From NCBI GenBank assembly GCA_938021675.1, contig CALIFY010000024.1:1-64000 (forward strand): DNA of 64,000 bases, in the 5' to 3' direction. Position numbers and translations under genes: made by a program. The notes below the pieces were generated by a model, which did not search any database, was not told the origin of the DNA, and saw only the letters and a program-made list of their open reading frames with translations. This DNA is from an uncultured Acidimicrobiales bacterium (lineage in GTDB: Bacteria; Actinomycetota; Acidimicrobiia; Acidimicrobiales; SZUA-35). Shown in pieces: positions 38,656 through 55,246 of the stretch; position 1 is the first letter of the stretch, and each line of letters starts with the position of its first letter.

Positions 38656-39315
38656 CTAGCCCAAGATCGTGAGCTTGGTCCACGCGCCGAGAAAAATCGG
38701 TGCCCCGACTTTGACCTCGATCGGCACCCCTTGGCTAATAGCTTTCGAATCTGGCGTCGCAACGAACGTTCCGTTGGTCGACCCAACGTCCACGACGGTG
38801 TGAACACCATCAACGGTGACCCGTATCACAGCGTGACGACTCGACACCGCCTGGTCACCGGTCAGATCGGCGACATCGATATCGGGGTGGATGGCCCGGC
38901 TTTCACTGGTTCGACCCACGTGAATCTCGGTACCGGCCAGTTCCAGCTCGAGAACCGCCGGAGGAGGATCCGGGTACTCGATTTCACCGTCGTTGACCAC
39001 CTCATCGAAGTAGGCACGGTCTACGGCGACGGCGATTCGGAATCGAGGCACCTCGGCCACCGGCACCTCGGCTGAGGCCGACGGGCCAGAGACCGGGTCG
39101 GCATCGAGCACCGACGGGGCGACTGCTTGCTGACCGAGATCAGCGGGTTGATCCGATTCCGGAGCCGGGGTCGACGGAGTTGGTGGAGCGGCGACCCCTA
39201 ACTCTCCGCCGGTATCGGGTGGCAGCGACCCGGTTATGAAGTCATAGCCGCAGTTCTCGCAGAACATGTCGTCTGGGCCATGACCCACTCCGCAGTTGTC
39301 ACACGTACTGTCCAT
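38656..39315 (-). CDS. Zinc-ribbon FHA-domain protein
   Basis: The 219-residue protein has an N-terminal zinc ribbon (Cys5, Cys8, Cys19, Cys22), a Pro/Ala-rich linker to about residue 95, and a C-terminal FHA domain (about 110-219). The pThr-binding residues are present: HVGRTSE, SSRHAVI and STNGTFV. FHA domains bind phosphothreonine peptides. It is the last gene of a same-strand run with VWA, PP2C and a PknG-type kinase, so it is a good candidate reader of that kinase's output, comparable in position in the pathway to mycobacterial GarA. It lacks GarA's N-terminal ETTS-type phosphorylation motif. Confidence 0.85.
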   Translation of the reverse strand: MDSTCDNCGVGHGPDDMFCENCGYDFITGSLPPDTGGELGVAAPPTPSTPAPESDQPADLGQQAVAPSVLDADPVSGPSASAEVPVAEVPRFRIAVAVDRAYFDEVVNDGEIEYPDPPPAVLELELAGTEIHVGRTSESRAIHPDIDVADLTGDQAVSSRHAVIRVTVDGVHTVVDVGSTNGTFVATPDSKAISQGVPIEVKVGAPIFLGAWTKLTILG

Positions 39316-39421: not shown

Positions 39422-40699
39422 TTATCCCCGGTTCACCCGCACCGTCCTGGTGGAGCGGACGTCGAGCGCCATCTCATCGGCTTTGTCGACACCTCGGCGG
39501 AGCCGAACGGTACCGGTGGCCGGGTTATCAACGTCGACAACCTTTTGCAGCAGCCGCACCGTATCGCCATTGCCAGCCTCATGGGCAATCTGGACGGCAC
39601 GACCGAGCTTTACAGTCGCCGTCTCCTGATCTCCGACGTCTCGGGCCGCCAGTCCTTCGGCGATGGCATCGGCCAGTTCTGCCTGACCGGTGTAGTGCGC
39701 AACTTCACGGTTGATCCTTGTCGTGAGCCGCTCGTCGTCGGTCCAGATCGCCCGCACCAAGGCCGCCGGCTGATCGACTCCATCGATCACCAGCATGACG
39801 CGAGCAGCTAGTCGTTCATCGCTAATGTTGCCGACCGGGATATGGATCCGAACGTGGTAATCACGCTCTTCTTCACCGGCCCAGGCGCCGAGCGGATAGT
39901 CATTGGTCAGGGGGTTGACGGCTTGAGCTGAGCCCGTCAGGTCTTCCAATGTTGGCGCCACCTGCTTCACGAACTGGCTCGACGATCCTTTCGGCGTCCA
40001 CAACCGCAGAGCGACACTTCCTACCTGTTTCCCCATGGCTGCTTCGGTGAGGCGGGTGAATTCCGCTTCCATGTCCTCGGGGCGGGGAATGATGTCAACG
40101 GTGCCGAGAAGCGAGGAGGACACACGTCGCATCTCATCGATATCCCAATCGGATCCAAGGCCTCGGGCATCGCACTGAAACAACCCAACACAGTTAGAGA
40201 TGGCCGAATCGAGAACCCAATCTTCCTCGTGCTGGTTCTTCCCATCGGTCAACAACAAACAGTGGGCGATAGCATCTGGGCGAAGCCCGGCCAGATAGGC
40301 GGCAGCTTTGAGCCACGTCCCGATGGCCGTGCCACCGTTGGCCTGGGTTCTGGCCACCATTTGCTTTGCTTCTTCGCGGGTCCGGGGATCGGAGATCGCC
40401 AGCCCCTCGTGAGGGTAGATCATGTACGCACCGGCGTTGCCACCGACGATGGCGAAGTAGACACCATCGTCGATGGTGTCTATGGCGGCCTGGGTTGCCG
40501 CCTTGGCCGCCCGCATCTTCCGGCCACCTTCCTCCTGCATCGAACCAGACGTGTCGATGACGATCATCTCGACCGCATCCCGGACCGAGGCCCCAGCCGT
40601 ACCATCGCCCGATGATCGCACCGTGACGACCGCGTCGATCGTGTCGGCCCCAGCGGGGAGGAACTCGTTCTGGAACACCTCGGCAACAAAATCAGTCAC
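39422..40699 (-). CDS. VWA-domain protein of the PknG-type cluster
   Basis: The 425-residue protein has a von Willebrand factor A domain at about 42-215 with a complete MIDAS motif (Asp49-x-Ser51-x-Ser53 in IDTSGSM, a Thr in GGTAIG, and Asp in LLLTDGK). A beta-rich middle and a helical region (about 335-395) follow. No signal peptide or membrane span, so it acts in the cytoplasm. VWA domains are metal-dependent protein-binding modules. The C-terminus is Thr/Arg-rich (STRTVRVNRG) and could be a phosphorylation site read by the neighbouring FHA protein; that is inference from the pattern. It is preceded by PP2C 40 bp upstream. Confidence 0.82.
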   Translation of the reverse strand: MTDFVAEVFQNEFLPAGADTIDAVVTVRSSGDGTAGASVRDAVEMIVIDTSGSMQEEGGRKMRAAKAATQAAIDTIDDGVYFAIVGGNAGAYMIYPHEGLAISDPRTREEAKQMVARTQANGGTAIGTWLKAAAYLAGLRPDAIAHCLLLTDGKNQHEEDWVLDSAISNCVGLFQCDARGLGSDWDIDEMRRVSSSLLGTVDIIPRPEDMEAEFTRLTEAAMGKQVGSVALRLWTPKGSSSQFVKQVAPTLEDLTGSAQAVNPLTNDYPLGAWAGEEERDYHVRIHIPVGNISDERLAARVMLVIDGVDQPAALVRAIWTDDERLTTRINREVAHYTGQAELADAIAEGLAARDVGDQETATVKLGRAVQIAHEAGNGDTVRLLQKVVDVDNPATGTVRLRRGVDKADEMALDVRSTRTVRVNRG

Positions 40700-40739: not shown

Positions 40740-41822
40740 TCATGACTCATCGCTTTGCGATGGCATCGCCGGAGGTGCGGGGTCGCCCTCGTCGGTGAAG
40801 GCGACCGCCGAGGCGATCGATGTCGCCGCATCGCCTCCCGACAACTCACCATCGGCATCGAGCCGCTCTGGGTGATTGCTCCACAACACCACGCTGATGT
40901 TGTCGTGGCCCCCCTGCTCGTTCGCGAAATCGACGAGAGCTTTCGCCATTCCAAGCCCACGCTCCCCTTCATTGGCCAGCCGGCCTAACAGTCCTTGCAT
41001 CTCGGCCGGCTCGGCCGCATACCGCCAGAGACCATCGCTACAGACGACGACCCACCCCGGTCCTTCGACCTGCGTCGTCGTCACATCCGGGGTGGGGTCG
41101 ACGCTGTCAGCCCCAAGCCATCGAACCAAGCTTCCGTTCAGTTCATGGTCGACCGGCGAGAGCCGCAACGCGCCAGCATCGGCGTCGACACCGGCGGCGG
41201 CAATATCGCCCACCCAATAGGCGCGGCTATCGCCGACCCAGGCGGTGGACAGCTCGGTGGTTACCGAATCGACCGACCTGACGACGACGGCGACAAACGT
41301 CGATGACGGCGGGCCACCAGCATCGTCGTCATAGGTGACGGGCCGACCATCAGCTTCAAGCTCGGTCGATGCCGATGCCTCGGCCTGGGCCGCCTCAACT
41401 GCTTTCGCGAGCAGCGTGTCGACGTCGACCACCGAGTCATCTAGACCCGACAACAGCAGATCACAGGCGGTGGCAGCAGCCCGCTTCGATGCTTCGGCGG
41501 ACCCCGGGGTCGACGACACGCCGTCGCAGACGACGAGCACTGCGTCGCCAGCGTTGGTTTGGCCAAGAGCCACTGCGTCCTCGTTGTGCCGATGCCGCTT
41601 GCCGCGGTCGGTGACCGCAACCGTCGAACCGGCGCGGAACTCCATATGGTCCCGCTCCTCGGGTTGCTTGTACCCACAAGAGAGGCAGTACCCCTCATCG
41701 CCAACCTCTCGCTCGCCACAGGATACACACATTGGGGACGGCTCGATGTTGAGGTCTTGACCGCATGCCTCGCAAAACTTGGCCTCTTCAGGGGCCTCCT
41801 CGGAGCAATTTGGACAGATCAT
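40740..41822 (-). CDS. PP2C-type protein phosphatase with two N-terminal zinc ribbons
   Basis: The 360-residue protein has two zinc ribbons (Cys3/6/17/20 and Cys32/35/46/49) and then a PP2C/PPM domain (about 64-335). The metal-binding motifs are intact: HRHNEDAV, VVCDGVSS, AWVGDSRAYWV, VCSDGLW and GHDNISVV. It should dephosphorylate Ser/Thr substrates of the kinase encoded immediately upstream. Its ATG shares one base with the kinase stop (TGATG), so kinase and phosphatase are translationally coupled. A cytoplasmic location is expected. Confidence 0.92.
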   Translation of the reverse strand: MICPNCSEEAPEEAKFCEACGQDLNIEPSPMCVSCGEREVGDEGYCLSCGYKQPEERDHMEFRAGSTVAVTDRGKRHRHNEDAVALGQTNAGDAVLVVCDGVSSTPGSAEASKRAAATACDLLLSGLDDSVVDVDTLLAKAVEAAQAEASASTELEADGRPVTYDDDAGGPPSSTFVAVVVRSVDSVTTELSTAWVGDSRAYWVGDIAAAGVDADAGALRLSPVDHELNGSLVRWLGADSVDPTPDVTTTQVEGPGWVVVCSDGLWRYAAEPAEMQGLLGRLANEGERGLGMAKALVDFANEQGGHDNISVVLWSNHPERLDADGELSGGDAATSIASAVAFTDEGDPAPPAMPSQSDES

Positions 41823-44422
41823 CAGAACAGGCTCCGGGGTCGGACGGCGTTGGCGCGATCAACCAGGCGGATTCGTTCCGCTTCGGTAGTAGCAAGACGG
41901 GCTTGGGTACGGTAGGTCTCCTCCAGGCCTTCGCGCAATGACTTCTCGGACAACTCCCGCCCCAACATCGCACGACCATTTATTGGAATCCGACCGGAAG
42001 CGATCCCGTCGAGTCCTTGTTCAAAGATCTCGGCCGACAGCGCGGCCCGCTCCGCGGCGTCGAGTTGCAACCTCTCGATCGTCGCCGCAGCCGATGCCAG
42101 GTCTTCGAACTGTGGCTCACCGTCCGGCCCCCCAGACACAAGTGCTCTGGCCGCCGCCACCTGGGCGTCGTAGTGGGCGGCCGAGCTGGTCGGAACCCGG
42201 TTGAATGCAGCGACCACTCCATCGTGGTCGCTCACCTGCCAGCTACACCGAGCGAGGCCGAACGCCGCCGACACGAACGACGAGTCGGAGCTGATGACCA
42301 TGTCATACAGTTCCAGAGCGCGCTCGTACTCTCCAGCCAATTCCGCGGCAAGAGCGACGGCTATCTTTGGCGCGGTTTCCCCCGGAAGTTCCGTCCACAC
42401 CCGACTAAAACCTTCGGCCGCCGGCGCAGCGAGCCCAGTCTGCAGTTGCTGAATCGACCGATACCAATTGACCCGCCATTCCCAGGGGTTCGACAGCTCG
42501 ACCTGACGAAGAATTTGTGTCGGTTGACCAATATCTTCACCCAAAGGTTCTCGAAGTTGGATCAGCTCCCAGACCAACCTGAGTAACACCTCATCGGAGG
42601 CCACGACCTGGCCGGCTTCTATCCCATTCTGTATCGATTGGACCGCCCGTGCCGGATTACCCTCGGGAAGTCCCAGCAGAAATGGGGCCGCGGGGTCGGC
42701 TTCATTTACCCTGGCGCCGGGAAGAACACGCCAGTCGGCAGCGGTCACGTCGTAAGTCTCCGAGCTTGCGACCAGCATGTTTGCCAACTGGTCGCCTTCG
42801 AACAGGGTCGAGGCCACCGGTCGGGGACGGCGCTCGGTGACGGCCACAACCTCTCGTAACACGCCGGTCAGCTGCTCCGCCATCTCTTCTGCACTCTGGA
42901 ATCGATCGTCTGGGTGGAAGGCGGTGGCTCGTAAAAGGAATCGATAGAGAGATTCCCAATTGGCAAACAGAGGTTCTTCGGTTGGCGAAGGCAAAGAATA
43001 TAGAAAGGTGCCTTCATGGAACATGAATCGTATTATTAATACCGCCAGGGTTCGACCGACGGTGTACAAGTCCGAGGCGACCGAAGGCCCCTCCTTCGCA
43101 ACCTCCGGCGCCTGAAATCCTTGCGTGCCGAAAATAGCGGCCTGCTCATCACCTATCCGCATTACCGCACCAACGTCGATGAGCTTTACGTCATCACCAA
43201 CCGCCATGAGGTTGGCCGGCTTCAGGTCGTTGTATACAAGGCCAAGGTCGTGCAGATAAGCGAACGCCGGTAATGCACCCAGCACATAGGCGATCGCTTC
43301 GGCCACAGGCAACGGATCGGGCACACCGCCGTTCACCCTCCGACGAGCTTTCAACTTTGCGTTTAATGACTCGCCTCCAACCATCTCCATAACGATGTAC
43401 CCGGAGCCCCGATGGGTCACAAAGTTGTAGATGTTCACGATGTTGGCGTGTTCGATCTGAGCCAAGAACTGGCGCTCGGCCACAGCGGCAGCAACGGCGT
43501 CAGGGTCATCCTCGTTCAGCAGGCCCTTCAGCACCACCCAGCGGTTTGAAACCGCTCGATCACGACCGAGGTAGATCCAGCCCATACCACCGTGGGCTAG
43601 TGGACCCAAGATCTCGTATTGGCCGGCCACTATTTCGCCCCGCCGCAGCGACGGTTCGTTTGTCACGAAGTCGAACGCGGTCCGACATGTCCCACAAAAC
43701 CCTTTGACCCGACCCGGTTTTCCTCCGTGTTCCCGACCGACCGGCTTCCCACACGCCGCGCAGTTTCGATCTTCCTCCAAGACGATGCCGAGTTCGGCTT
43801 TGATCCGCTCGTCGGTCATGACCGCAGCGGCTGGATCACCTACCAACGTTGGCGGGACCGACACCAACCCGATCCCGATCCCCGTGCGAACCGAGCCGGT
43901 GCGTCGCGACGCGGTCGTCGTGGTACGACTGCGAGCGGTAGCGGTTCCAGCCCCGGGGATCCGGTTCGAGATATCGGGTGGCTGGGGAACAGCGATCGAC
44001 GGCACGTCTTCTGAGTCGGGATCTATCCGAGCCAGGACCGGCGTCGTCACCCGGACCGGTCCGCCATGACTGGTGGCGGCAAGCCCGCACGTGTCGCAGT
44101 AGCCGTCGTTGGCGATCGTACCGACACAGCCATCCCGCCCACACGGCGACCCGGTAGGGCGAACGGTACCGTCCGAGCCGCCGGCCGATGGTTGTCCGCC
44201 GTAGGCACCACCTCCGTCTCGGTGATCGGCTGGGGTTCCGTGGTCGTTGACGAATCCGCTGTCGGCCCACACCGCCTGTGCCGCCGACAACGGCACGTCG
44301 TGACCGACCGCTGAAACGGTCGGATCGGCCGACGCAGCCGGCGTTGGCTTGGCACCACAGGTATCGCAATACCCGTCGTTGGCGATCGTGCCGGCACACC
44401 CCGCCTCACCGCACGGGGTCAT
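41822..44422 (-). CDS. pknG: PknG-type serine/threonine protein kinase with duplicated zinc ribbons
   Basis: I prefer ATG 44422 (866 residues) because the first zinc ribbon begins there, though an in-frame ATG 14 codons upstream is possible. Two near-identical ribbons (Cys4/9/19/22 and Cys94/99/109/112; GTIANDGYCDTCG) are followed by a Thr-rich basic segment. A rubredoxin-like site (Cys221/224/243/246) comes next, then a kinase domain (about 265-520) with Lys299, YNDLKP (Asp399) and LIDVGA (Asp416), and a C-terminal TPR region. The rubredoxin-kinase-TPR order and IVAGQYE, HGGMGWIYL, LVYNDLKPANLM and GFQAPE closely match mycobacterial PknG, which controls TCA cycle flux through FHA protein GarA. 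Coupled downstream to PP2C. Confidence 0.93.
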   Translation of the reverse strand: MTPCGEAGCAGTIANDGYCDTCGAKPTPAASADPTVSAVGHDVPLSAAQAVWADSGFVNDHGTPADHRDGGGAYGGQPSAGGSDGTVRPTGSPCGRDGCVGTIANDGYCDTCGLAATSHGGPVRVTTPVLARIDPDSEDVPSIAVPQPPDISNRIPGAGTATARSRTTTTASRRTGSVRTGIGIGLVSVPPTLVGDPAAAVMTDERIKAELGIVLEEDRNCAACGKPVGREHGGKPGRVKGFCGTCRTAFDFVTNEPSLRRGEIVAGQYEILGPLAHGGMGWIYLGRDRAVSNRWVVLKGLLNEDDPDAVAAAVAERQFLAQIEHANIVNIYNFVTHRGSGYIVMEMVGGESLNAKLKARRRVNGGVPDPLPVAEAIAYVLGALPAFAYLHDLGLVYNDLKPANLMAVGDDVKLIDVGAVMRIGDEQAAIFGTQGFQAPEVAKEGPSVASDLYTVGRTLAVLIIRFMFHEGTFLYSLPSPTEEPLFANWESLYRFLLRATAFHPDDRFQSAEEMAEQLTGVLREVVAVTERRPRPVASTLFEGDQLANMLVASSETYDVTAADWRVLPGARVNEADPAAPFLLGLPEGNPARAVQSIQNGIEAGQVVASDEVLLRLVWELIQLREPLGEDIGQPTQILRQVELSNPWEWRVNWYRSIQQLQTGLAAPAAEGFSRVWTELPGETAPKIAVALAAELAGEYERALELYDMVISSDSSFVSAAFGLARCSWQVSDHDGVVAAFNRVPTSSAAHYDAQVAAARALVSGGPDGEPQFEDLASAAATIERLQLDAAERAALSAEIFEQGLDGIASGRIPINGRAMLGRELSEKSLREGLEETYRTQARLATTEAERIRLVDRANAVRPRSLF

Positions 44423-44495
44423 CGGACCAATGCTCCGAACCGCTCGACACGACTCGAGTCGCATCGGTCGATAGGGTTACCAGGGCCCGTGGCGC

Positions 44496-45734
44496 TCATG
44501 TTCGAAGCCTCTCTGCCAGGTTGGTGATTACCGATTCGGCGGCTGCCAGGTCGGTCGGCGCACTGTAGAGCTGCGATCGAGCCCGGTCCACCAGTTCGGC
44601 AAGGTCCATATCTTCGGCCCGGCCCGAGGCAGCAATTTTGGCTGAGTAGGCCTGAAGCCGGCCGCGCAGCTCATCACGGCGATGGAGCGGTCGCCGATTG
44701 GTTTCCTCTGCCCTCGTTAGCTGATTCTCCAACTTCCTCGCCGAACTCAACCACGAATCGAGCAACGCTCGCTTTTGCGTCCAGGCCTTCGTCGCCGCGT
44801 TTTCAAACAATGCATCAAGGCGAGCCGCCATGCCGTCGGGCCCATCGAGCAGTGCCGGTCCGGGGACCCGAGCCAGACCTTGCGGGTTGTCGATCTTGGC
44901 TCCCGACTCGACGAATGCGGCCTCGGCTCTGGCCCGCAGCACCCGCAGCGACGCCAACAGTTCCTCGGTCGCATTCAGGTCGGCATCGAGGTTGTCGTGG
45001 CCGGTACGAAGCGCAGCCATCTGGCTTGCCGCCTTCGCTACCTGGGCGTCGAGATTCGGCCCGTCCTCGACCTTGACGCTGGCTGGATCCGACATCAGCC
45101 TGTCGGCCAAGTCATCGGCCAACGCTGCGGCCCGGCCGATCAACGGTTCGATGACGCCGAGCTGGCGGGCCTCTTCCTCCAACCGCGCAATCGTGGTTCT
45201 CGCCGCGTCGACCCGAGGAAGGACCGATACCCACAGTTGATCGACTTCGGCCACCGCGCTGCGAATGGCGTCATATCGGCGGCGAATGTGGTCGAGGGTT
45301 TCACCGATCGAGTAATTGCGGGGCGTGCCTCCGGCCAGTGCCGTCACTGCGAACCATCTGTCGGTCAAAAGCCGATGTAACTCCGCTCCGGCCGCGCCGG
45401 TTGTCCCCTTTGTGTCGGCGTGATTCCGGATGACCCCAAGATGGGCCTCAGCGGCCTGGATAAGCGGCCAAAGATCGCCGGCCTGGCGGGCAGCCTCGCC
45501 GTACCGCCTCGCCGTGTCGCCGGTGAGCGTCGCATCCTTCAACATCAGGTAGGAGGGAGATTGCTCGATCTCCGATACCCCGAGCTGAAACCCGTCGAGC
45601 GACAACTCGTAGTGGTCGAGCGTGCTGATCAGGTCGGGAGACCCCCGACCGACGCCGGCGGTTCTCGTCTGGCCCCCGTCAGGTGGTGGACCAGAAGACG
45701 GAGGAAAATGAGGTGGGGGAAGATGAGACGGCAC
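44496..45734 (-). CDS. Helical/coiled-coil protein of the PknG-type cluster
   Basis: The 412-residue soluble protein has a Pro-rich N-terminus (HLPPPHFPPSSGPPP) and is otherwise almost entirely helical with long heptad-like stretches (about 130-200 and 220-400). No enzymatic motifs are seen. It lies 73 bp upstream of the kinase on the same strand and starts the kinase-phosphatase-VWA-FHA run. Its position suggests a scaffold or substrate of the kinase, and comparable helical proteins accompany PknG-type kinases in other actinobacteria as I recall. The start ATG 45734 lies at the edge of the divergent promoter region. Confidence 0.7.
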   Translation of the reverse strand: MPSHLPPPHFPPSSGPPPDGGQTRTAGVGRGSPDLISTLDHYELSLDGFQLGVSEIEQSPSYLMLKDATLTGDTARRYGEAARQAGDLWPLIQAAEAHLGVIRNHADTKGTTGAAGAELHRLLTDRWFAVTALAGGTPRNYSIGETLDHIRRRYDAIRSAVAEVDQLWVSVLPRVDAARTTIARLEEEARQLGVIEPLIGRAAALADDLADRLMSDPASVKVEDGPNLDAQVAKAASQMAALRTGHDNLDADLNATEELLASLRVLRARAEAAFVESGAKIDNPQGLARVPGPALLDGPDGMAARLDALFENAATKAWTQKRALLDSWLSSARKLENQLTRAEETNRRPLHRRDELRGRLQAYSAKIAASGRAEDMDLAELVDRARSQLYSAPTDLAAAESVITNLAERLRT

Positions 45735-45874
45735 TGACCGTCGAGCTTAGCTCCGTTCTTTCAACTGATAACCGACGGAGCGCCGCCCTTCACTTCTTTC
45801 CCGACCCCCCGTCGCCCGTCTCGGGTGGTCGCAGGTACCAGCTGGCGTTACCAGACCAGCGAACCTCTCCCCGC

Positions 45875-45918
45875 TCGTTGCAGTGCTGATACCCGTTCGT
45901 TGCAGTGCTGATACCCGT
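45875..45918. repeat. Two adjacent 22-bp direct repeats in the divergent promoter region
   Basis: The 22 bases at 45875-45896 are repeated exactly at 45897-45918 (core GCAGTGCTGATACCCGT), and a degenerate third copy begins at 45919. They lie between the coiled-coil gene (minus) and the GlnX-like gene (plus), 64 bases before the latter's ATG. Tandem sites at such a place could bind a regulator of both arms of the cluster. Confidence 0.6.
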
Positions 45919-45981
45919 TCATTGCGGTGCTCGTCACCTGGTGATTGTCTCATCGTAGTTTCCACTATCGTGATCATCGAT

Positions 45982-47316
45982 ATGACCGCGGTCTCAAAAC
46001 CTCCGCTCCCACCGGCCGACATCAATCCGCCGGCGGCAGCGCCTACCCCATTGAAGTCGCGAGCCCTTCGCCCCCGAAGCTCTTCGCCCGCCAAAGGGAC
46101 CACCCCAAGCTTCCTTCGACGGTGGAATGTCGTCTTGCTGGCCCTGGTCGCCGCCTTTGCCGTCGTCGGATCGGCCGCCAGTCTTGTCATGCGCTCAGCG
46201 TCTGAGACGACGGCAAACAATACGGCGCCAGCGCTCATCGGGATCCAAAGCCTGTTCGCCAGCGTGGCCGAGGCCAACACTGCCTCGACCGCGGCGTTCT
46301 TGGCTCAACGCACCGATTCGACCGACCGGGTAAACCGCAATCTCTACTACGACGCCATCCGTCGAGCGAGCGAACAGACCGAAGAGGTCTCCGCCATCTT
46401 TGGCGACGACCCAGCCGCCCACCGGGCCTTAAAGAACACCGGGATCTCACTCAATACATACAGCGGCCAGATCGAGGCAGCCAGGGTGGCAAACGCCAAC
46501 GACCTTCCCGGTGCCGACGAACAACTACGACAAGCGCTCAGCGTTGTCCAAAACGACGTCGGCCAGTCGGTAGCAACCGTGAACGCCCGCGGCCAGCTTC
46601 ACCTCGACGAAGAACGCAACACCGGTCTCATTCTCACCATCTTGGCCATCATCCTTGGGGTGATCACGGTTTTGGCTTTACTTCGGGCCCAGATTGGTCT
46701 GCTGCAGCGAACCAACCGGATCCTTAACCCACTTCTGGTGTTGGCCACCGCGCTGATCTTGATCGTTCTCGGCTACCTGATCATCGGGCCAGCGACCCGA
46801 TCGAGAGCACTCGACGACGCAGCGTCCGGAGGGCTTACCGCAATAGAGACCACGTCCGATATTCAGACCGCGGCGTTCGAACTCCAGTCGGAACTCAGCC
46901 TGCGATTACTCGAAGAAGACCGGGCCGATCTCACATCGCTGTTCGCCCAAGTCGATGCCGATCTCGATCGCCTGGCCAACGGCGCAGACTCCGATCGTGA
47001 GCGGGCGGCGGCCGAAACACTCCGAATCCGTTGGGTGCGGTACCAGAACGTGGCCAGATCGATCGAGGACCAAGCCGATCGAGGCGACCTCGACGCGGCC
47101 ATCGAACAGTTCCGAGGCGAGGGCCTCGCTGCGTTTAACGGGTTGAACACCGCGATCGAAAGTGTGTTGTCCGACAACCGAACCCAGTTCATCTCCGGTG
47201 TCGACCGGGCAGCCAGCGCCGTCGGCACCACCCCATTCCTCACCATCATCCTTCCCGTGCTCGCCGCCCTCGCTATCCTTCTCGCAATTCAGCGCAGACT
47301 CGGGGAATACCGTTGA
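45982..47316 (+). CDS. GlnX-like four-span membrane sensor/transducer
   Basis: I choose ATG 45982 (444 residues). After a Pro/Ser/Arg-rich cytoplasmic N-terminus come a helix at about 49-70, an extracellular helical domain (about 71-213), helices at about 214-235 and 248-270, a second extracellular helical domain (about 271-418), and a last helix at about 420-440. There is no catalytic domain. Mycobacterial GlnX, encoded beside PknG and GlnH, has the same four-span plan and passes the signal from the binding lipoprotein to the kinase. The next gene, a binding lipoprotein, overlaps the stop (TTGA), so the two are coupled. I infer a sensory pair acting on the divergent kinase. Confidence 0.75.
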   Translation: MTAVSKPPLPPADINPPAAAPTPLKSRALRPRSSSPAKGTTPSFLRRWNVVLLALVAAFAVVGSAASLVMRSASETTANNTAPALIGIQSLFASVAEANTASTAAFLAQRTDSTDRVNRNLYYDAIRRASEQTEEVSAIFGDDPAAHRALKNTGISLNTYSGQIEAARVANANDLPGADEQLRQALSVVQNDVGQSVATVNARGQLHLDEERNTGLILTILAIILGVITVLALLRAQIGLLQRTNRILNPLLVLATALILIVLGYLIIGPATRSRALDDAASGGLTAIETTSDIQTAAFELQSELSLRLLEEDRADLTSLFAQVDADLDRLANGADSDRERAAAETLRIRWVRYQNVARSIEDQADRGDLDAAIEQFRGEGLAAFNGLNTAIESVLSDNRTQFISGVDRAASAVGTTPFLTIILPVLAALAILLAIQRRLGEYR

Positions 47317-48485
47317 TCGGACGTCGCATCAACAACCGAAACGATCGACAGCTCAGCCGTCGACGCTTTTTGGCACTAGCTGGCGCCGCCGGATTGGCTG
47401 CCTGCACCGATACCAGCCGTCCGACCCAGTTCGACCTTGGGGGCAGCTTCCAAGCCCGAGTTCTCAATTGGGACAAGTACATCGATGTCGGCGCCGATGA
47501 TGACCTCTTCTATCCGGGGGGAACGCTGGACAGCATCCGTTCGCTCGGCGTCACCATCGACTACAGCGAGTCATACGAGGACAACTACTCCGGTTTCGAT
47601 TTGATCGTGTCACAGGCGGTCAATACCTCCCCACCGGAATACGACATCGTCGTCCCCACCAACTGGCGAGCGGCTCAAATGATCGAAAACGGGTGGGCGG
47701 AACCCCTTCCCATCGAGGTCATCCCAAACCACGCCAACATCGACCCCGCCTTCCTCACGAACGCCTGGGACCGTGGCAGCCGATTCCAGATGCCATGGCA
47801 GGCCGGCATCACCGGCATCGCATACGACCCGATGCTGACTGGACGACCGCTCAATTCCGTCGAAGACCTATTCGCCGCCGATCTAGCCGGCAAGGTGGGC
47901 TTCATCGGCGAAATGCGGGAAGCCGTTGGACTCACGATGCTGGCCAACGGCGCTGACCCGTCGCGGCCAACATTGGCGACGGCAGAGGCCGGGCTCGAAC
48001 GGGTCATCGACGCCATCGAGAGCGGGCAGGTCGGAGCCGTAACATTCGAGGACTTTGCCGAAAAGCTCCGCACCGGTGAATTGGCTGCGGCCATGGCCTG
48101 GTCTGGCGACACCGCACTTCTTCAAGCGGACAGACCCGACATTGAATTCATCGTTCCCGACGAGGGCGCTATCCAGTGGTTCGACACCATGGTTATCCCA
48201 GCAGGAGCGGAGAACGTGGCGGCGGCTGGCGCGTTCATGGATTTCGTCTACGACCCGACGAACGCGGCCAGGATCACCGAATTCGTCCAGTTCATGTCAC
48301 CGGTGATGGGGGTGCAGGAAATCCTGGCCGGCCGAGGGGGCGCCAGCGCCGAACTAGCGAGCAACCCGGTGTTGTTCCCCGATGACACAGCACGAGCCCG
48401 TCTCTTCACCTGGGGCGGCTTGTCGGCCGAGGAGGAAACGGCGCTCGATGATCGGTACCTTCCCTTCGTACCTTCAGATCCGTAG
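47313..48485 (+). CDS. PotD-like (polyamine-type) substrate-binding Tat lipoprotein
   Basis: Start TTG at 47313 lies in the preceding stop (TTGA). The 390-residue protein has a twin-arginine signal (SRRRFLALAGAAGLAAC) with lipobox Cys31, so it is a lipid-anchored extracellular protein. It has a class D periplasmic-binding fold like PotD/PotF: LNWDKYI at the start, DIVVPTNW near 111, and MREAVGLTML near 201. The pocket residues of PotD seem to be kept or conservatively changed: Trp53, Glu203, Trp263, Trp289 and Asp291. No permease or ATPase gene is nearby, which argues for sensing rather than transport, in the place held by GlnH in the mycobacterial pathway. Confidence 0.83.
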   Translation: MIGRRINNRNDRQLSRRRFLALAGAAGLAACTDTSRPTQFDLGGSFQARVLNWDKYIDVGADDDLFYPGGTLDSIRSLGVTIDYSESYEDNYSGFDLIVSQAVNTSPPEYDIVVPTNWRAAQMIENGWAEPLPIEVIPNHANIDPAFLTNAWDRGSRFQMPWQAGITGIAYDPMLTGRPLNSVEDLFAADLAGKVGFIGEMREAVGLTMLANGADPSRPTLATAEAGLERVIDAIESGQVGAVTFEDFAEKLRTGELAAAMAWSGDTALLQADRPDIEFIVPDEGAIQWFDTMVIPAGAENVAAAGAFMDFVYDPTNAARITEFVQFMSPVMGVQEILAGRGGASAELASNPVLFPDDTARARLFTWGGLSAEEETALDDRYLPFVPSDP

Positions 48486-48560
48486 GCTCTCCTGCTGATC
48501 CGCAGGCTTTCCTGCTGATCCGCAGGCTTTCCTGGTGATCCGCAGGCTTTCCTTCTGAGG
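48481..48560. repeat. Four tandem copies of a 20-bp unit
   Basis: Copies at 48481-48500, 48501-48520, 48521-48540 and 48541-48560 share CGCAGGCTTTCCTGCTGATC, with two changes in the first copy, one in the third and a diverged end in the fourth. The array begins in the last codons of the binding-lipoprotein gene and ends 1 base before the GTG of the decarboxylase, so it fills the whole spacer. Confidence 0.8.
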
Positions 48561-48561
48561 G

Positions 48562-50010
48562 GTGCCGAACGACCGATGGGTGAATCCCGACCCGGGCTAC
48601 ACGACTCTTACCGGACCGAGCCATAACGTAAACGGGGCCGATTACGCCATGATGCACGACTACACCGACGATACCGACCGGTTGGCCGACGAGATCGTGG
48701 AGCTCGCCCGTTGGCGGACCCGTCTCGACCCCATCCCGCTCGGCACGGCCAGGACCGCCGATGAACTCGTGGAACTCGTCGGAGCGACGATTACCGCTGA
48801 AGGAATCGGTGGCCATCAGGCTCTCGCCATCTTTCGCGATGTGTTGGCCCCTTCCTGCCTGTCGGTCGACTACACGAAATACCTGTCGTTCGTTCCCGCG
48901 GCACCAACCGAGGCTGCGGTGTTGTTCGACCTCGTGGTCGGCGCATTCTCCATCTACGGCGGTTCGTGGATCGAAGGAGCGGGTTCGACCCATGCCGAGA
49001 ACGAGGCGATCAGGTGGTTAGCCGATCTCGCCGGGTTGTCGAGCACCGCCGGCGGCGTGTTCGTTCCCGGAGGCACGATCGGCAATCTGTCGGCGATGGT
49101 CGGCGCCAGAGGCGCGGCCGAACAACGACTGGCCGAGGCCGGCCACCCTCGGCCAGATCGGTGGGCCTTCGTCGTTTCGGCCACCGCTCATTCGTCGATC
49201 CCGTCGGCGGCCGCGGTCATGGATGCCGATCTCATCGCCGTCCAAACCGATGAGCAGCGGCGACTCACCGGAGACGGCGTCGCCGCTGCGTTAGAGGAGC
49301 ACGGTCACCGGGTGGCCGGTGTCGTAGCCACCGCCGGCGCAACGAATCTCGGAGTCATCGACGACCTCCAGTCGATCGGCGTCGTGTGCAGAGAACGTGG
49401 CGTGTTTTTCCATGTCGACGCGGCCTATGGCGGCGCAGCCCTGGCCGCACCATCGGTCCGACCGCAGTTCGACGGTATCGAGCACGCCGACTCCATCATC
49501 ATCGACCCCCATAAATGGCTGTTCGCCCCGTTCGATTGTTGCGCCCTTCTGTGGCGAGATCCAGACCAGGCGAGGGCGGTCCACGCCCAACATGCTGGCT
49601 ACCTCTCGTTTCTCGACGCCTACGGCGATTGGAACCCGAGCGATTTCGCTATCCATTTGACCCGCAGAGCCCGTGGCTTACCGTTTTGGTTCTCCCTCGC
49701 CACCTATGGAACGGACGCATACGCCGAGGCGATCCAGATCACCCTCGACCTCGCCATCGAGGCCGGTCGACGTATCGAGGCCGCACCCCACCTCGAACTG
49801 GTGTGGGAACCGACGCTGAGCATCGTGGTGTTTCGCCGGATCGGTTGGGACCCCGATCAGTACCAGGCGTGGACCGAAGCCATGTTGGCCGACGGGGCGG
49901 CGTTCGTCGTCCCCAGCCGGCATGACGGCGAGCCGGTCTTTCGATTCTGCTTCGTCAATCCCCGAACGACCGTCGACCAGATCGACGAAATCATCGACGC
50001 GCTGGCCTGA
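48562..50010 (+). CDS. PLP-dependent group II amino-acid decarboxylase
   Basis: The 482-residue enzyme belongs to the aromatic-L-amino-acid/glutamate decarboxylase group: GVFVPGGTIGNLSAM near 170, HVDAAYGG near 290 (Asp for the pyridine nitrogen) and the Schiff-base Lys in IDPHKWLF near 318. These enzymes decarboxylate tyrosine, tryptophan, DOPA, glutamate, aspartate or 2,4-diaminobutyrate. The substrate cannot be fixed from sequence. Start GTG 48562 overlaps a GAGGGG site; a later ATG pair at 48649 is the alternative. It follows the polyamine-type binding protein across a 20-bp tandem repeat, so a link between the decarboxylation product and the sensor is worth considering. Confidence 0.85.
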   Translation: MPNDRWVNPDPGYTTLTGPSHNVNGADYAMMHDYTDDTDRLADEIVELARWRTRLDPIPLGTARTADELVELVGATITAEGIGGHQALAIFRDVLAPSCLSVDYTKYLSFVPAAPTEAAVLFDLVVGAFSIYGGSWIEGAGSTHAENEAIRWLADLAGLSSTAGGVFVPGGTIGNLSAMVGARGAAEQRLAEAGHPRPDRWAFVVSATAHSSIPSAAAVMDADLIAVQTDEQRRLTGDGVAAALEEHGHRVAGVVATAGATNLGVIDDLQSIGVVCRERGVFFHVDAAYGGAALAAPSVRPQFDGIEHADSIIIDPHKWLFAPFDCCALLWRDPDQARAVHAQHAGYLSFLDAYGDWNPSDFAIHLTRRARGLPFWFSLATYGTDAYAEAIQITLDLAIEAGRRIEAAPHLELVWEPTLSIVVFRRIGWDPDQYQAWTEAMLADGAAFVVPSRHDGEPVFRFCFVNPRTTVDQIDEIIDALA

Positions 50011-51196: not shown

Positions 51197-52201
51197 TCAC
51201 CGACGGCCGAGAAGGTGGTCGAGCACCGCAGCGGCAGCTGATGACGGCGACCGGGACGCGTTCTGGGCGTCGGAGACGAGGCGTTCGCCCACTTCGGAAT
51301 AGATGAGGTCGTCGATGCGGGAGTCGAGTGCCTGGTTGAGCGTGGCCCGGATCTCGGCCCGAATGCGGTGACGGCGACGGATGTGGCGCCGACCGAGTTT
51401 CCCCAGGATCTCTAAGTGGTCTGCCACGGCCTGCCAAACGTCTGTCGTGCCATCGCCGTCGATGGCCGAGCACATGACGATGGGGGGACGGTACCCCGAT
51501 CCATCCTCTTGTCCCGTCACGTGGCTCAGATCGAGCATCAGGTCGAGATCGCGCCGGACATCGTCTGCCCCCGGCCGGTCGGCTTTGTTCACCACGAATA
51601 CGTCGGCGACTTCGAGTAAGCCGGCCTTGTTGGCCTGAACGGCATCACCCATCCCCGGCGTCATGACGACAACCGCGGTGTCTGCGGCGCCGACGACGTC
51701 CACCTCGACCTGGCCAACGCCGACGGTCTCGATGATGATCGGGTCATACCCGACCGCATCGAACAACCGAACGGCCTGCGGCACAGCTACCGCAAGACCT
51801 CCAGAGTGACCTCGGGTCGCCATCGAACGAATGAATACGTCATTGGTAGATCTCGTGCCAGAGGGTTCGGTGGACGGAGTGCCTTCCATCCGGATTCTGT
51901 CACCGAGAATGGCACCACCGGTCAGTGGAGACGATGGGTCGACGGCGAGCACCGCGGGCCGCACATCGTTGTCTCGCAAAAGTTCGACCAGCCGACCGGT
52001 CAACGTCGACTTGCCGGAACCCGGCGCACCGGTAATCCCAATCACGTGGGCGGAACCAGCATCTACGTGAGCCAGTTCCCCGATCTCATCGGCCGGCGGC
52101 CCTCCTCGTTCGATGCGGGTGAGCAGCCGGCCAAGAGCCCGACGATCCCCGCCTTTGGCTTCGCGGTACATCTCCTGCACCGGCTGCAGCTGTCGACCCA
52201 T
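51197..52201 (-). CDS. meaB: MeaB/ArgK-type GTPase chaperone of B12-dependent mutase
   Basis: The 334-residue G3E-family GTPase has Walker A GAPGSGKST near residue 57, ILGDRIRM and PSGTRSTNDVFIRSM switch segments, the ETVGVGQ motif near 158 and the base-recognition NKAD near 206. MeaB loads and protects acyl-CoA mutases by gating cobalamin transfer and removing damaged cofactor. It is the third gene of mutase large subunit - B12 subunit - meaB, 6 bp after the B12 subunit stop, which fits this role exactly. Confidence 0.95.
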   Translation of the reverse strand: MGRQLQPVQEMYREAKGGDRRALGRLLTRIERGGPPADEIGELAHVDAGSAHVIGITGAPGSGKSTLTGRLVELLRDNDVRPAVLAVDPSSPLTGGAILGDRIRMEGTPSTEPSGTRSTNDVFIRSMATRGHSGGLAVAVPQAVRLFDAVGYDPIIIETVGVGQVEVDVVGAADTAVVVMTPGMGDAVQANKAGLLEVADVFVVNKADRPGADDVRRDLDLMLDLSHVTGQEDGSGYRPPIVMCSAIDGDGTTDVWQAVADHLEILGKLGRRHIRRRHRIRAEIRATLNQALDSRIDDLIYSEVGERLVSDAQNASRSPSSAAAAVLDHLLGRR

Positions 52202-52207
52202 CTACGC

Positions 52208-52645
52208 TCAGACGCTCGCCGAGACGGCGTCTCGAACGATGGCCGCCACCTCTTCGGCCGACGCACCAGGGCCGATCACCGCCGCAACACCAGCGTCGAG
52301 CATCGGCTGTACGTCGTCTTTTGGCACGATCCCTCCGACGATGATCGGAACTGGCAGCTCGGCCTGGCGAAGCGCCTTGACCATGTTCGGGGCGAGCGTC
52401 ATGTGACCAGCGTTGTGCATGGAAAGCCCGATGGCATCGGCATCTTCTTCCATCACCGCGGTGACGATCGAGTCGGTCGTTTGCCGAAGGCCGAGGTAGA
52501 TCACTTCCATTCCCGCATCCCGAAGAATACGAGCGACGACCTTGATGCCGCGATCATGTCCGTCGAGCCCCAACTTTGCCAGTACCACGCGAAGGGGTAC
52601 GTCGCCTCCGCTCATCGGTTCTTTCGATGGTGTGCGGTCGACCAT
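52208..52645 (-). CDS. Cobalamin-binding small subunit of acyl-CoA mutase
   Basis: The 145-residue stand-alone B12 domain has the base-off ligand motif DGHDRG (Asp-x-His-x-x-Gly; GLDGHDRGIKV), then IGLSMHNAGHM and VGGIVP, the conserved loops that hold the nucleotide tail. It supplies the lower His ligand for adenosylcobalamin in a two-subunit mutase. The start may be ATG 52645 or ATG 52615; the latter is closer to family starts. Gene order, with the large subunit 41 bp upstream and meaB 6 bp downstream, indicates one complex. Confidence 0.92.
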   Translation of the reverse strand: MVDRTPSKEPMSGGDVPLRVVLAKLGLDGHDRGIKVVARILRDAGMEVIYLGLRQTTDSIVTAVMEEDADAIGLSMHNAGHMTLAPNMVKALRQAELPVPIIVGGIVPKDDVQPMLDAGVAAVIGPGASAEEVAAIVRDAVSASV

Positions 52646-52686
52646 GTCGGAAGTCTATGCCAACCGGTTAGCCGCACACCCGACGG

Positions 52687-54372
52687 CTAGACGATCGCTT
52701 TCTCAACATAGGTGCCGAACACCGTCTCCATGGCCGCCACCACTTCCTCGAGGGTGGCGTAGGCCCGCACGGCGTCGAGGATCGGTTCCATCATGTTCAC
52801 ACTCGAGTCGGAAGCGGCTGCCGTCACCGCGGCAAGGGCCGAAGCCACCGCATCCCCATCGCGTTGCGACTTCACGTTCTCCAACCGTTTGAGCTGATAA
52901 TCCTCGACATCGCTCCCGATTCGGAGGAGGTCCTGTTCACCGTCGTCGCCGTCGGTGAAGTCGTTCACCCCGACGATGATGCGCCGGCCAGCGTTGACCT
53001 CTCGTTCGAACCGATATGCGGACTCGGCAATATCTCCGACGAAGTATCCGTTTTCGATCCCGGCGTACACGCCCTCCAGAATGGAACCGTCGCCGATCTG
53101 GTCAAGGTGGGCGAAGACTGCCTCGGCTTGACGCTCCATCTCGTCGGTCATCCACTCCACGTAGGGGGCGCCGCCTAGCGGGTCGGCCACGTTTGCCGCC
53201 CCCGACTCATGAGCCACGATCTGCTGGGTCCGCAATGCGATCCTGGCCGCCTTCTCGGTTGGAAGGGCCAACGCCTCATCGTAGGAGTCGGTGTGGAGGC
53301 TCTGTGTACCACCGAGCGCGCCGGCCAGGGCCTGGATAGCGACCCGGGCGATGTTGATCTCCGGCTGCTGAGCGGTGAGCGAAACGCCGGCGGTTTGGGT
53401 GTGGAAGCGACACAACATCGATCGCTCGTTTTTGGCCCCGTATCGTTCTTTCATCCACCGGGCCCAGATTCGGCGGGCCGCTCGGAACTTGCCTATCTCC
53501 TCGAAGAAATCGATGTGTGAGTTGAAAAAGAAGCTGAGGCGAGGAGCGAACACATCGACGTCAACCCCCGCCGCCATGGCCGCTTCCACGTAGGCGAAGC
53601 CGTTGGCCAATGTAAATGCCAGTTCTTGGGCGGCCGTGCTGCCGGCTTCACGGATGTGGTAACCGGAGATCGAGATCGGGTGCCACTTCGGCATCTCGGC
53701 GGCGGCAAACCTGACCATGTCGGTGATGATCCGCACCGAAGGCCGGGGAGGATAGATGTACTCCTTCTGGGCCTGGTACTCCTTGAAGATGTCGTTCTGG
53801 ATGGTGCCGGCCAGTTTGTCTCGGGGCACGCCGTTTTTCTCGGCCACCGCGATGTACATGGCAAAGACGATGGCGGCCGGACCGTTGATCGTCATCGATG
53901 TCGACACCGACCCGAGGTCGATGCCGGCGTACAGGTCTTCCATGTCGGCCAGGCTGTCGACGGCGACGCCGGCCCGACCGACTTCGCCGACCGACCACGG
54001 TGAGTCGGAGTCCCGACCCATCAGCGTTGGCATGTCGAAGGCGGTCGAAAGGCCACCGCCACCGTTGCGAAGGATGTCGTGGAACCGAGCATTGGTGTCT
54101 TCGGCTGTGCCGAAACCGGCGAACATCCGCATCGTCCACAACCGTGACCGGTACATCGAGGAATAGACGCCACGGGTGTAGGGGTATTGACCGGGATAGG
54201 GGCCGTCGCCGTACACCGGTTCGACCGGCACCCCCGACATCGTCTCAAACGGCACATCCCGGAGGGGCGATGCCTCATATGCTTCCCGGAACGCTTGGTA
54301 CTCCGGCGACTCGGTCGCTGTATAACGTTCGTCGTCTTTGTCAGAGTGTTCTGGTTCTATCCCAACGACCAT
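52687..54372 (-). CDS. B12-dependent acyl-CoA mutase large subunit
   Basis: Start ATG 54372 gives 561 residues and avoids overlap with tryptophan dioxygenase; the longer frame is unlikely. It is the catalytic TIM-barrel subunit of the methylmalonyl/isobutyryl-CoA mutase family: YPYTRGVYSSMY, TIQNDIFKEY, ISISGYHIREAGS, GGTQSLHTDSYDEAL. The two-subunit split resembles isobutyryl- and 2-hydroxyisobutyryl-CoA mutases. By alignment from memory, Tyr70 corresponds to the methylmalonyl-CoA mutase Tyr89, but Gln202 stands where that enzyme has Arg207, the residue that holds the substrate carboxylate. A substrate other than methylmalonyl-CoA is therefore possible. It follows tryptophan dioxygenase by 88 bp. 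Confidence 0.9.
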   Translation of the reverse strand: MVVGIEPEHSDKDDERYTATESPEYQAFREAYEASPLRDVPFETMSGVPVEPVYGDGPYPGQYPYTRGVYSSMYRSRLWTMRMFAGFGTAEDTNARFHDILRNGGGGLSTAFDMPTLMGRDSDSPWSVGEVGRAGVAVDSLADMEDLYAGIDLGSVSTSMTINGPAAIVFAMYIAVAEKNGVPRDKLAGTIQNDIFKEYQAQKEYIYPPRPSVRIITDMVRFAAAEMPKWHPISISGYHIREAGSTAAQELAFTLANGFAYVEAAMAAGVDVDVFAPRLSFFFNSHIDFFEEIGKFRAARRIWARWMKERYGAKNERSMLCRFHTQTAGVSLTAQQPEINIARVAIQALAGALGGTQSLHTDSYDEALALPTEKAARIALRTQQIVAHESGAANVADPLGGAPYVEWMTDEMERQAEAVFAHLDQIGDGSILEGVYAGIENGYFVGDIAESAYRFEREVNAGRRIIVGVNDFTDGDDGEQDLLRIGSDVEDYQLKRLENVKSQRDGDAVASALAAVTAAASDSSVNMMEPILDAVRAYATLEEVVAAMETVFGTYVEKAIV

Positions 54373-54460
54373 AGCGATGATTGTCTCATAGGTGCCAAAC
54401 GACAAACGAGCCGAGACCAACCGGGGCCGACCGGGGCAAACCAGGTGACCTCGGCAGCGC

Positions 54461-55246
54461 TCACAGGACGGCCCGAATGGCCCACAGGTCGGGGAATACC
54501 GGCCGAAACAGTGTGGACCGGAGATACTCAACGCCGCTGGAGCCGCCGGTCCCGACTTTGCCGCCAATGGTGCGCTGGACCATCATCACGTGCCGGTACC
54601 GCCACTCTTGCATGCCCTCGTCGAGGTCGGTGAGAGCTTCGCACAACCGCATGAGCGGCGGGTCTCCCCGATACACCTCGATGAGCGCAGCCTGTACTCC
54701 TGTCGACGGCTCGGTCGGCGCTGTCACCTGGCGTTCGAGGAACTCGTCGGGGATGTCGTATCCCTGCCGGCACACGTAGGAGATAAAGGAGTCCCACAGG
54801 CACGGTCGCTCGAATCGGCGTTTGAGGTTGGCATGCTCACGAGGGTTGTCGACGAACCGCTCGAGGTGGGCCGACGATTTCTGGCCGAGCACGAACTCAA
54901 CCTCCCGGAACTGGGCGGACTGAAAGCCGGACGCGTTTGCCAAGAAACGCCGAAACGACTCAAACTCGAGCGGCGTCATCGTTTCGAGAACATCGAGTTG
55001 GGTGATCATCGTCTTTAGGATCTTCAGAACCCGCTGCAGCTGATGACCGCTGAGCGCTGGCCGATCGTCGTCGAGGTGCTCGACAAGCTCATCGATCTCG
55101 TGGAGCACCTGTTTGAACCAGAGCTCATAGATCTGGTGGATGATGATAAACAGCGTCTCGTCGTGCTCTTCTGGCTCGGACTTCGGCCGCTGCAACGACA
55201 GCAGCTCGTCTATCTTGAGGTAACTCCCATATGTGAGCTCCTGCAT
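54461..55246 (-). CDS. kynA: Tryptophan 2,3-dioxygenase
   Basis: The 261-residue haem enzyme opens the indole ring of tryptophan to N-formylkynurenine, the first step of the kynurenine pathway. Hallmarks: LTYGSYLKIDELLSLQ at the N-terminus, distal-side His37 in FIIIHQIYELWFKQ, substrate Arg114 in QFREVE, and proximal haem ligand His219 in WRYRHVMMV. GTGG near 232-235 is the substrate-binding loop. A GAGGAG site lies 6 bases before the ATG. It follows kynurenine monooxygenase by 9 bp. Length is at the short bacterial end of the family. Confidence 0.96.
   Translation of the reverse strand: MQELTYGSYLKIDELLSLQRPKSEPEEHDETLFIIIHQIYELWFKQVLHEIDELVEHLDDDRPALSGHQLQRVLKILKTMITQLDVLETMTPLEFESFRRFLANASGFQSAQFREVEFVLGQKSSAHLERFVDNPREHANLKRRFERPCLWDSFISYVCRQGYDIPDEFLERQVTAPTEPSTGVQAALIEVYRGDPPLMRLCEALTDLDEGMQEWRYRHVMMVQRTIGGKVGTGGSSGVEYLRSTLFRPVFPDLWAIRAVL

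Follow-up and report, generated by a model that had tools for sequence, protein, structure and literature searches.

The 64,000-nucleotide stretch of DNA studied here (hereafter the window) lies on a contig (C24) of a 4.45-Mb draft genome (G000, completeness 95%) whose genus-mates are metagenome-assembled genomes of Acidimicrobiales. It carries a signalling module of the GlnH-GlnX-PknG type. We consider it probable that the sensor GlnH has been replaced in this module, apparently once, within a clade of mostly uncultured, Acidimicrobiales-type bacteria, by a twin-arginine translocation (Tat) lipoprotein related to the PotABCD substrate-binding protein (SBP), and that the module works by polycationic-amine sensing, docking on GlnX and output through PknG as proposed below. 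An earlier note on this DNA had suggested such a PotD-like replacement of the PknG-pathway sensor. The suggestion is supported by the GlnX and PknG context of the lipoprotein gene, by the absence of PotA, PotB and PotC from its loci, and by a retained binding pocket. The genes concerned are as follows.

38656-39315, minus strand: FHA-domain protein with an N-terminal zinc ribbon (ribbon below the Pfam cut-off), last gene of the PknG operon (Pfam FHA, E 9.6e-10)
39422-40699, minus strand: VWA protein with a VWA_3_C domain, kept in the operon of relatives (Pfam VWA_3_C, E 3.6e-23)
40740-41822, minus strand: PP2C phosphatase with a double zinc ribbon (Pfam PP2C_2, E 1.3e-10; DZR, E 7.4e-8)
41822-44464, minus strand: PknG kinase (Pfam PknG_TPR, E 3.2e-62; PknG_rubred, E 2.2e-14; Pkinase, E 9.5e-27)
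44496-45734, minus strand: CC412, first gene of the PknG operon, conserved and without a Pfam family at E 0.01
45982-47316, plus strand: GlnX-like (P-type) transducer, probable start ATG 45982 in an open reading frame (ORF) from 45883 (NF058618, E 1.2e-58)
47313-48485, plus strand: PotD-like Tat lipoprotein, the proposed sensor (SBP_bac_8, E 4.6e-24)
48649-50010, plus strand: pyridoxal phosphate (PLP)-dependent group II amino-acid decarboxylase, third gene of the sensor operon (Pfam PF00282, E 1.8e-59)

The kinase operon reads CC412, PknG, PP2C, VWA and FHA on the minus strand; the transducer, lipoprotein and decarboxylase genes diverge from it on the plus strand. Pfam matches confirm the rubredoxin-kinase-TPR kinase and its run with PP2C, VWA and FHA proteins. 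The divergent four-span protein is indeed coupled to a PotD-type Tat lipoprotein through a TTGA junction (47313-47316), 4 bp that the two genes share. As the note had said, transporter genes are missing: the scanned neighbouring genes hold no transporter family, and the 95%-complete genome has no recognisable PotB (best match 22.9 bits). CC412, which fills the gap between PknG and GlnX, and the decarboxylase after the SBP gene were both absent from that note.

Fold, pocket and probable ligand class of the lipoprotein

The N-terminus of the lipoprotein (SRRRF, then LAAC) reads by eye as a Tat signal with a lipobox. The protein matches only the Pfam families SBP_bac_8, SBP_bac_6, SBP_bac_1 and, weakly, SBP_bac_11. 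It does not match the GlnH-type family SBP_bac_3, whereas models of amino-acid SBPs are matched by five GlnH-type proteins from relatives. Against the NCBIfam equivalogs it scored 76 bits for PotD (cut-off 582) and 61 bits for PotF (cut-off 636), thus reaching neither. The structure prediction that had been suggested as a check gave a model (predicted local distance difference test score, pLDDT, 79.2) whose closest structures are polyamine receptors (Foldseek, VIA; VIA Z 28-31). The first 26 VIA rows are polyamine receptors and engineered variants, many of them variants of Escherichia coli PotF (Z 27.9-31.0). Receptors for gamma-aminobutyric acid (GABA) and opines come next, at Z about 24-26 (GABA 24.3-26.3).

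The pocket residues of PotD and PotF were taken from the accessible parts of PMC8666671 and PMC11414716, and conservation was counted over 32 rows of the SBP clade. The five window residues singled out beforehand, W53, E203, W263, W289 and D291, do align with PotD W34, E171, W229, W255 and D257. W53 is kept in 31 rows, as are Y56 (PotD Y37) and W118 (Y85), and T116 (S83) is kept in 29. The other four of the five, together with E200 (D168), are kept in all 32 rows. Position S232 of PotD (D247 of PotF) corresponds to D266 of the window, found in 25 rows, and Y293 corresponds to F327, where 30 rows have Tyr. Y37, S83 and Y293 we take, partly on assumption, to be pocket residues of PotD. The PotD Q327 column was left out because the surrounding alignment is unsure, and the partial SBPs of three genomes (G296, G325 and G223) were excluded from the alignment (A1).

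The pocket combines the proximal Asp of PotF with the distal acid and Trp of PotD. With the aromatic box and the majority of its acidic residues kept, it does not clash with polyamines as ligands. Conservation in 31 rows or more is seen at eight of the 13 pocket columns, compared with 79 of 390 columns overall (P 0.001), and the clade consensus equals that of transporter-linked sister proteins at 10 of 13 pocket sites, compared with 173 of 373 overall (P 0.024). Together these results support a shared cationic ligand class, without naming the ligand. The sensed compound is best read as a di- or polycationic amine. Residues that set the clade apart from PotD and PotF of transporters include R154, R157, T149 and E135. 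D266 is Gln or Asn in seven rows (L152, L153, L155, L156, L158, L159 and L166), where the ligand preference may differ.

The decarboxylase gene lies beside the SBP or GlnX gene in 30 of the 31 clade loci described below (the remaining one, L139, is cut). The lysine of its HK motif and its loop Tyr are invariant in 13 of 13 aligned sequences. The top NCBIfam match is a diaminobutyrate decarboxylase model (175.6 bits, cut-off 900), and the best PDB matches are DOPA decarboxylase (7xin), a PLP-dependent decarboxylase domain protein (4obu) and a decarboxylase of the desferrioxamine pathway (5o5c). The enzyme probably makes or removes a related amine. It is not confined to the module: of the 296 class genomes, 68 hold relatives (E 1e-100), the window genome and G223 among them, and neither SBP nor GlnX was found near them in the 11 other contexts fetched (L236-L246). 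In several f2 genomes, decarboxylase relatives adjoin what looks by eye like an amidohydrolase gene.

These features also bear on the alternative that survives best, a real sensor swap with another ligand, which would be GABA, a monoamine (aromatic or not) or a quaternary amine; the extra Trp would then form an aromatic cage, and the decarboxylase would hint at GABA or an arylamine. We regard this as rather unlikely, but it has points in its favour. PotD-like folds do bind GABA (Atu4243, SAR11 PotD) and opines. Trp stands for PotD Y85 in 31 of the 32 rows, and Lys55 of the window, at the position of PotD E36 and PotF D39 (Asp or Glu in 29 of the 32 rows of this alignment), takes away one acid. 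The decarboxylase has DOPA decarboxylase as its best PDB match, and aromatic-type enzymes are frequent among its matches. However, polyamine receptors head both the sequence and the structure neighbours, and the invariant E200, E203 and D291 are more acids than a monoamine needs.

The transducer and its association with PknG

Residue numbers of the transducer count from the start of the 477-residue ORF at 45883; the start at 45982 was chosen by comparison with relatives. The ORF matches the GlnX model NF058618 over positions 2-413 of 413 with 199 bits, and its P-type relatives score 158-225 bits, except for the split or cut genes of G298 and G223. Because the score is below the curated cut-off of 250, we call the protein GlnX-like, P-type. 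Hydropathy gives four spans (residues 84-102, 249-267, 284-302 and 451-469), and a fifth hydrophobic stretch (20-38) lies mostly ahead of the probable start. The AlphaFold2 (AF2) model is all helical, with two periplasmic four-helix bundles (pLDDT 83.6). Single bundles match the four-helix-bundle sensor domains 8bsa and 3va9 (E ~0.2, TMt 0.84); the whole chain returned at the top only low-TM matches (TTYH proteins, TM ~0.2), with the informative bundle matches lower. A scan with Pfam and NCBIfam found no GGDEF-EAL domain in the ORF. The protein thus has the four spans, the two bundles and the co-occurrence with PknG of the GlnX family, and falls short of its NF058618 cut-off.

Within the PotD-type GlnX proteins, stretches 126-140 and 418-432 are the most conserved (mean identity ~0.8, compared with 0.50 overall). 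Positions kept in this type and seldom shared by the GlnH type lie mostly in the second bundle, on its helices H3' and H4' (85% cut, 8 of 14; 80%, 10 of 18; 90%, 6 of 9), with helix limits taken from the AF2 model. The statistic is modest (P 0.001 against all residues, 0.045 against conserved sites). In LytS, XylFII sits on such a bundle face, and GlnH has been superposed near it, according to the accessible part of PMC9769921. The likeness to LytS-XylFII, as described there, is that the SBP is proposed to sit on H3/H4 of a four-helix bundle; that system pairs a histidine kinase with a sugar SBP, and the contact proposed here is a predicted one.

Among the 296 class genomes, NF058618 matched in 16 (E 0.001), ten with at least 87 bits and the other six with at most 23 bits. 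PknG_TPR matched in 14, above cut-off in ten, and these are the same ten genomes. Within the family (39 genomes), GlnX occurs in 18; 17 of these and none of the 21 others have PknG_TPR, and in the eighteenth (G325) the PknG frame is cut at a contig end. In genus g1, 10 of 12 genomes keep the order decarboxylase-SBP-GlnX / CC412-PknG-(PP2C-VWA-FHA) as far as the contigs reach, and so does G298 (g151). The sensor and kinase operons are apart in G324 (g1); an extra 428-codon frame separates GlnX from CC412 in G322 (g1), and G330 (g2) also has frames there. In G297 the SBP gene lies a few kb away from the P-type GlnX and decarboxylase genes, in G223 pieces of the module stand at two contig ends, and in G265, another family member, there is just a GlnX-GlnH pair, with the PknG operon on a different contig. 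Because the arrangement recurs in dozens of genomes, we reject a chance neighbourhood.

Two genomes hold further variants. G297 has three GlnX genes, two followed by GlnH and one of the PotD type, and a single PknG_TPR match (L083, L085 and L092); judging from this gene content, several sensors may feed one PknG there. G263 (L051/L052) has a diverged PknG and a diverged GlnX without a recognised SBP partner, and could hold a further sensor type.

Named genomes, scanned once with the SBP alignment, gave 65 loci, 37 of them actinobacterial. As the scan was built on two peptide patterns of the SBP clade, it favours close relatives, and 14 of the 31 clade loci come from genomes already in the class and family sets and are not additional genomes. 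The clade makes up 31 of the 37 actinobacterial loci, at 47% identity or more. GlnX is present in 29 of the 31 (adjacent in 28 and displaced in L140; L142 and L147 are cut upstream). PknG or CC412 lies divergently beside the pair in 25, and three more loci (L142, L143 and L147) are cut by contig ends. PotA, PotB or PotC was found beside none of the 31. In the six looser actinobacterial relatives (38-45% identity), in contrast, both GlnX and decarboxylase are missing and transporter genes of the PotABC type are present: L162-L165 have the complete trio, and in L160 and L161 two of the three were recognised. The earlier note had asked whether the lipoprotein keeps company with PknG or with a transporter of its own, and the answer is GlnX, mostly at a PknG operon.

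In a tree of 68 SBPs, all 32 clade rows (the window and two cut loci included) fall on one branch (100/100), with the six transporter-linked rows just outside it. A GlnX tree of 67 rows (66 different) likewise separates 32 PotD-type (P-type) from 35 GlnH-type (C-type) proteins (100/100). A scan across the phylum, with matches in 46 of 396 genomes (25 above cut-off), supplied 25 of the latter. Truncated genes of G111 (L014), G223 (L018) and G665 (L126) and weak partial matches were omitted; family matches also found in the SBP scan were entered once, under the L130 series, except for G330, which was entered twice (L148, L099). For 34 of the 35 GlnH-type genes, GlnH lies at most 1.5 kb away, once together with an ATP-binding cassette (ABC) ATPase match (L111); the one without it is L017, where 0.9 kb is available downstream and no partner was recognised. 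GlnX type and sensor type thus switch together, and on this sample they did so once.

Two further alternatives can be weighed on these data. The SBP-GlnX pair might signal elsewhere than to PknG, for example to the decarboxylase or an unlinked target; three loci in which the pair is not beside PknG (L135 of G324, L140 of G297, and L144) fit such a route, which we nonetheless think improbable given the genome-level co-occurrence of GlnX and PknG and the divergent PknG or CC412 at most loci. Least probable, and rejected here, is an ordinary transport SBP that has lost permease synteny and sits beside GlnX by genomic coincidence: its SBP_bac_8/PotD superfamily is known mostly from ABC importers and its nearest outside relatives do adjoin transporter genes, yet PotA, PotB and PotC are absent from its 31 loci, PotB is not recognisable in the genome, and at 20 of the 30 loci inspected the GlnX gene runs 4 bp into the start of the next one, which is the SBP in 19 and the decarboxylase in L140.

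Kinase operon, proposed circuit and known systems

PknG has the rubredoxin, kinase and PknG_TPR domains in order, each above the Pfam cut-off; residues 196-880 match 2pzi (phmmer, E 1.6e-127), and two Cys motifs stand at its N-terminus by eye. Zinc-ribbon-type N-terminal Cys motifs are found in PknG, PP2C, the operon FHA protein and a GarA-like protein (L214:1387-1878); that of PP2C is above the Pfam cut-off, that of FHA below it, and the others were seen by eye. CC412 is recognised ahead of PknG in GlnH-type and PotD-type genomes alike, and precedes it in the class loci with the upstream side present (L041, L042, L044, L047, L049, L050 and L053). The whole set CC412-PknG-PP2C-VWA-FHA is shared, to the extent that contigs cover it, by GlnH-type genomes of the class, and it recurs in two large-genome relatives (f73; the FHA frame was not called in L197, and CC412 was not separately resolved in L198). 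In four f78 loci (L199-L201 and L203), GlnX is followed by PknG, with GlnH beside GlnX, and CC412, PP2C, VWA and FHA were not called. Because it is also found in GlnH-type genomes and relatives, the five-gene operon is, judging by gene content, probably older than the sensor swap. The claim that kinase, phosphatase and possible readers are encoded together stands; FHA and VWA belong to the operon whatever the sensor and are thus uninformative on polyamines.

Based on these results, we propose the following circuit. The lipoprotein would close on a small polycationic amine of the putrescine/spermidine class outside the membrane. The closed form may then dock on the H3'/H4' face of the second four-helix bundle of its paired GlnX. 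The GlnX helices would relay this change to PknG at its TPR domain, and PknG may then phosphorylate FHA targets: the operon FHA protein and/or a GarA-like protein encoded elsewhere. The PP2C phosphatase of the operon would provide the reset.

The genome does encode a GarA-like FHA protein (contig C39, 139.7 bits, OdhI cut-off 200), placed by eye after a gcvH-like frame, and a 2-oxoglutarate dehydrogenase E1 (1291-residue frame, 1120.5 bits). The operon FHA protein as a GarA orthologue is not supported (NCBIfam OdhI, 30.1 bits, cut-off 200).

Several points weigh against the proposed circuit. Besides the missed NF058618 cut-off, Lys55, the Asp266 replacements and the three loci away from PknG, they concern output and contacts. 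The GarA-like protein of the genome stays below the OdhI cut-off; in the family, such proteins show no clear double-Thr motif (ETTSVF in GarA) and occur in 37 of the 39 genomes, PknG-negative ones included, so that the canonical output is a putative one. Among 30 GarA-like loci compared, 25 N-termini were readable (15 PknG-positive, 10 PknG-negative), and no motif separated the two groups. Even in Corynebacterium glutamicum, the GlnH-GlnX and GlnX-PknG contacts are undemonstrated, according to the available part of PMC9769921.

The GlnH-GlnX-PknG model is set out in PMC6069109 and PMC9769921, as far as these texts were accessible. Our module resembles the GlnH-GlnX-PknG-GarA/OdhI pathway of Mycobacterium tuberculosis, Mycobacterium smegmatis and C. 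glutamicum in its rubredoxin-kinase-TPR PknG, its four-span transducer with tandem four-helix bundles, its adjoining lipoprotein SBP gene without a transporter, and the GarA-like and 2-oxoglutarate dehydrogenase E1 genes of the genome. It differs in that the sensor is SBP_bac_8/PotD-like, not SBP_bac_3/GlnH, the sensor pair diverges from PknG, the sensor operon includes a decarboxylase, and CC412, PP2C, VWA and FHA are added (as in GlnH-type loci). PotABCD and PotFGHI share the SBP fold and most pocket residues; unlike them, our lipoprotein has no ATPase or permease genes, forms a distinct clade and carries clade-specific residues. The nearest precedent for a PotD-like signalling sensor is NspS-MbaA of Vibrio cholerae and Sinorhizobium meliloti, described in the accessible part of PMC9993111, in which the gene of a PotD-like periplasmic sensor overlaps that of its membrane partner. 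There the partner, MbaA, carries GGDEF-EAL domains; in the transducer here, which belongs to another phylum and is paired with a Ser/Thr kinase and a Tat lipoprotein, no enzymatic domain is recognised. In the literature searched, whose coverage leaves out most subscription papers, no paper came up that describes a polyamine sensor or a PotD-like one for PknG or GlnX.

It has been predicted in print that every sensor linked to PknG binds amino acids; at the level of fold and pocket, this clade would break that prediction, and the sensor appears as an exchangeable part of the PknG pathway. The stimuli that switch on bacterial protein kinases are called an outstanding question in the accessible part of PMC6069109. 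If the ligand is a polyamine, Ser/Thr kinase signalling joins the outputs of PotD-like sensors. The two matched GlnX sets, PotD-paired and GlnH-paired, are also useful because their differences point to the SBP-GlnX contact. A more far-reaching idea, which we offer tentatively, is that the pathway has turned from an Asp/Glu gauge into an amine-responsive circuit: the PotD-derived lipoprotein and its co-diverged GlnX would report polyamine-class amines, the decarboxylase would make or tune the same class, and synthesis and sensing would form one feedback unit. If this were true, the gene set of G297 would make PknG an integrator of several sensors.

Scanning the intergenic region for sigma-70 promoters gave no candidate. 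Two tandem repeats flank the sensor pair, and were not seen by eye in the printed gap pieces of L130, L131 and L138.

45870-45931: direct repeat, 22 bp, 2.8 copies, 5' of the probable GlnX start
48477-48558: direct repeat, 20 bp, 4.1 copies, from the SBP gene end towards the decarboxylase

Past the decarboxylase lie genes for MeaB and methylmalonyl-CoA mutase (51197-54567), and similar frames were seen by eye in several relatives.

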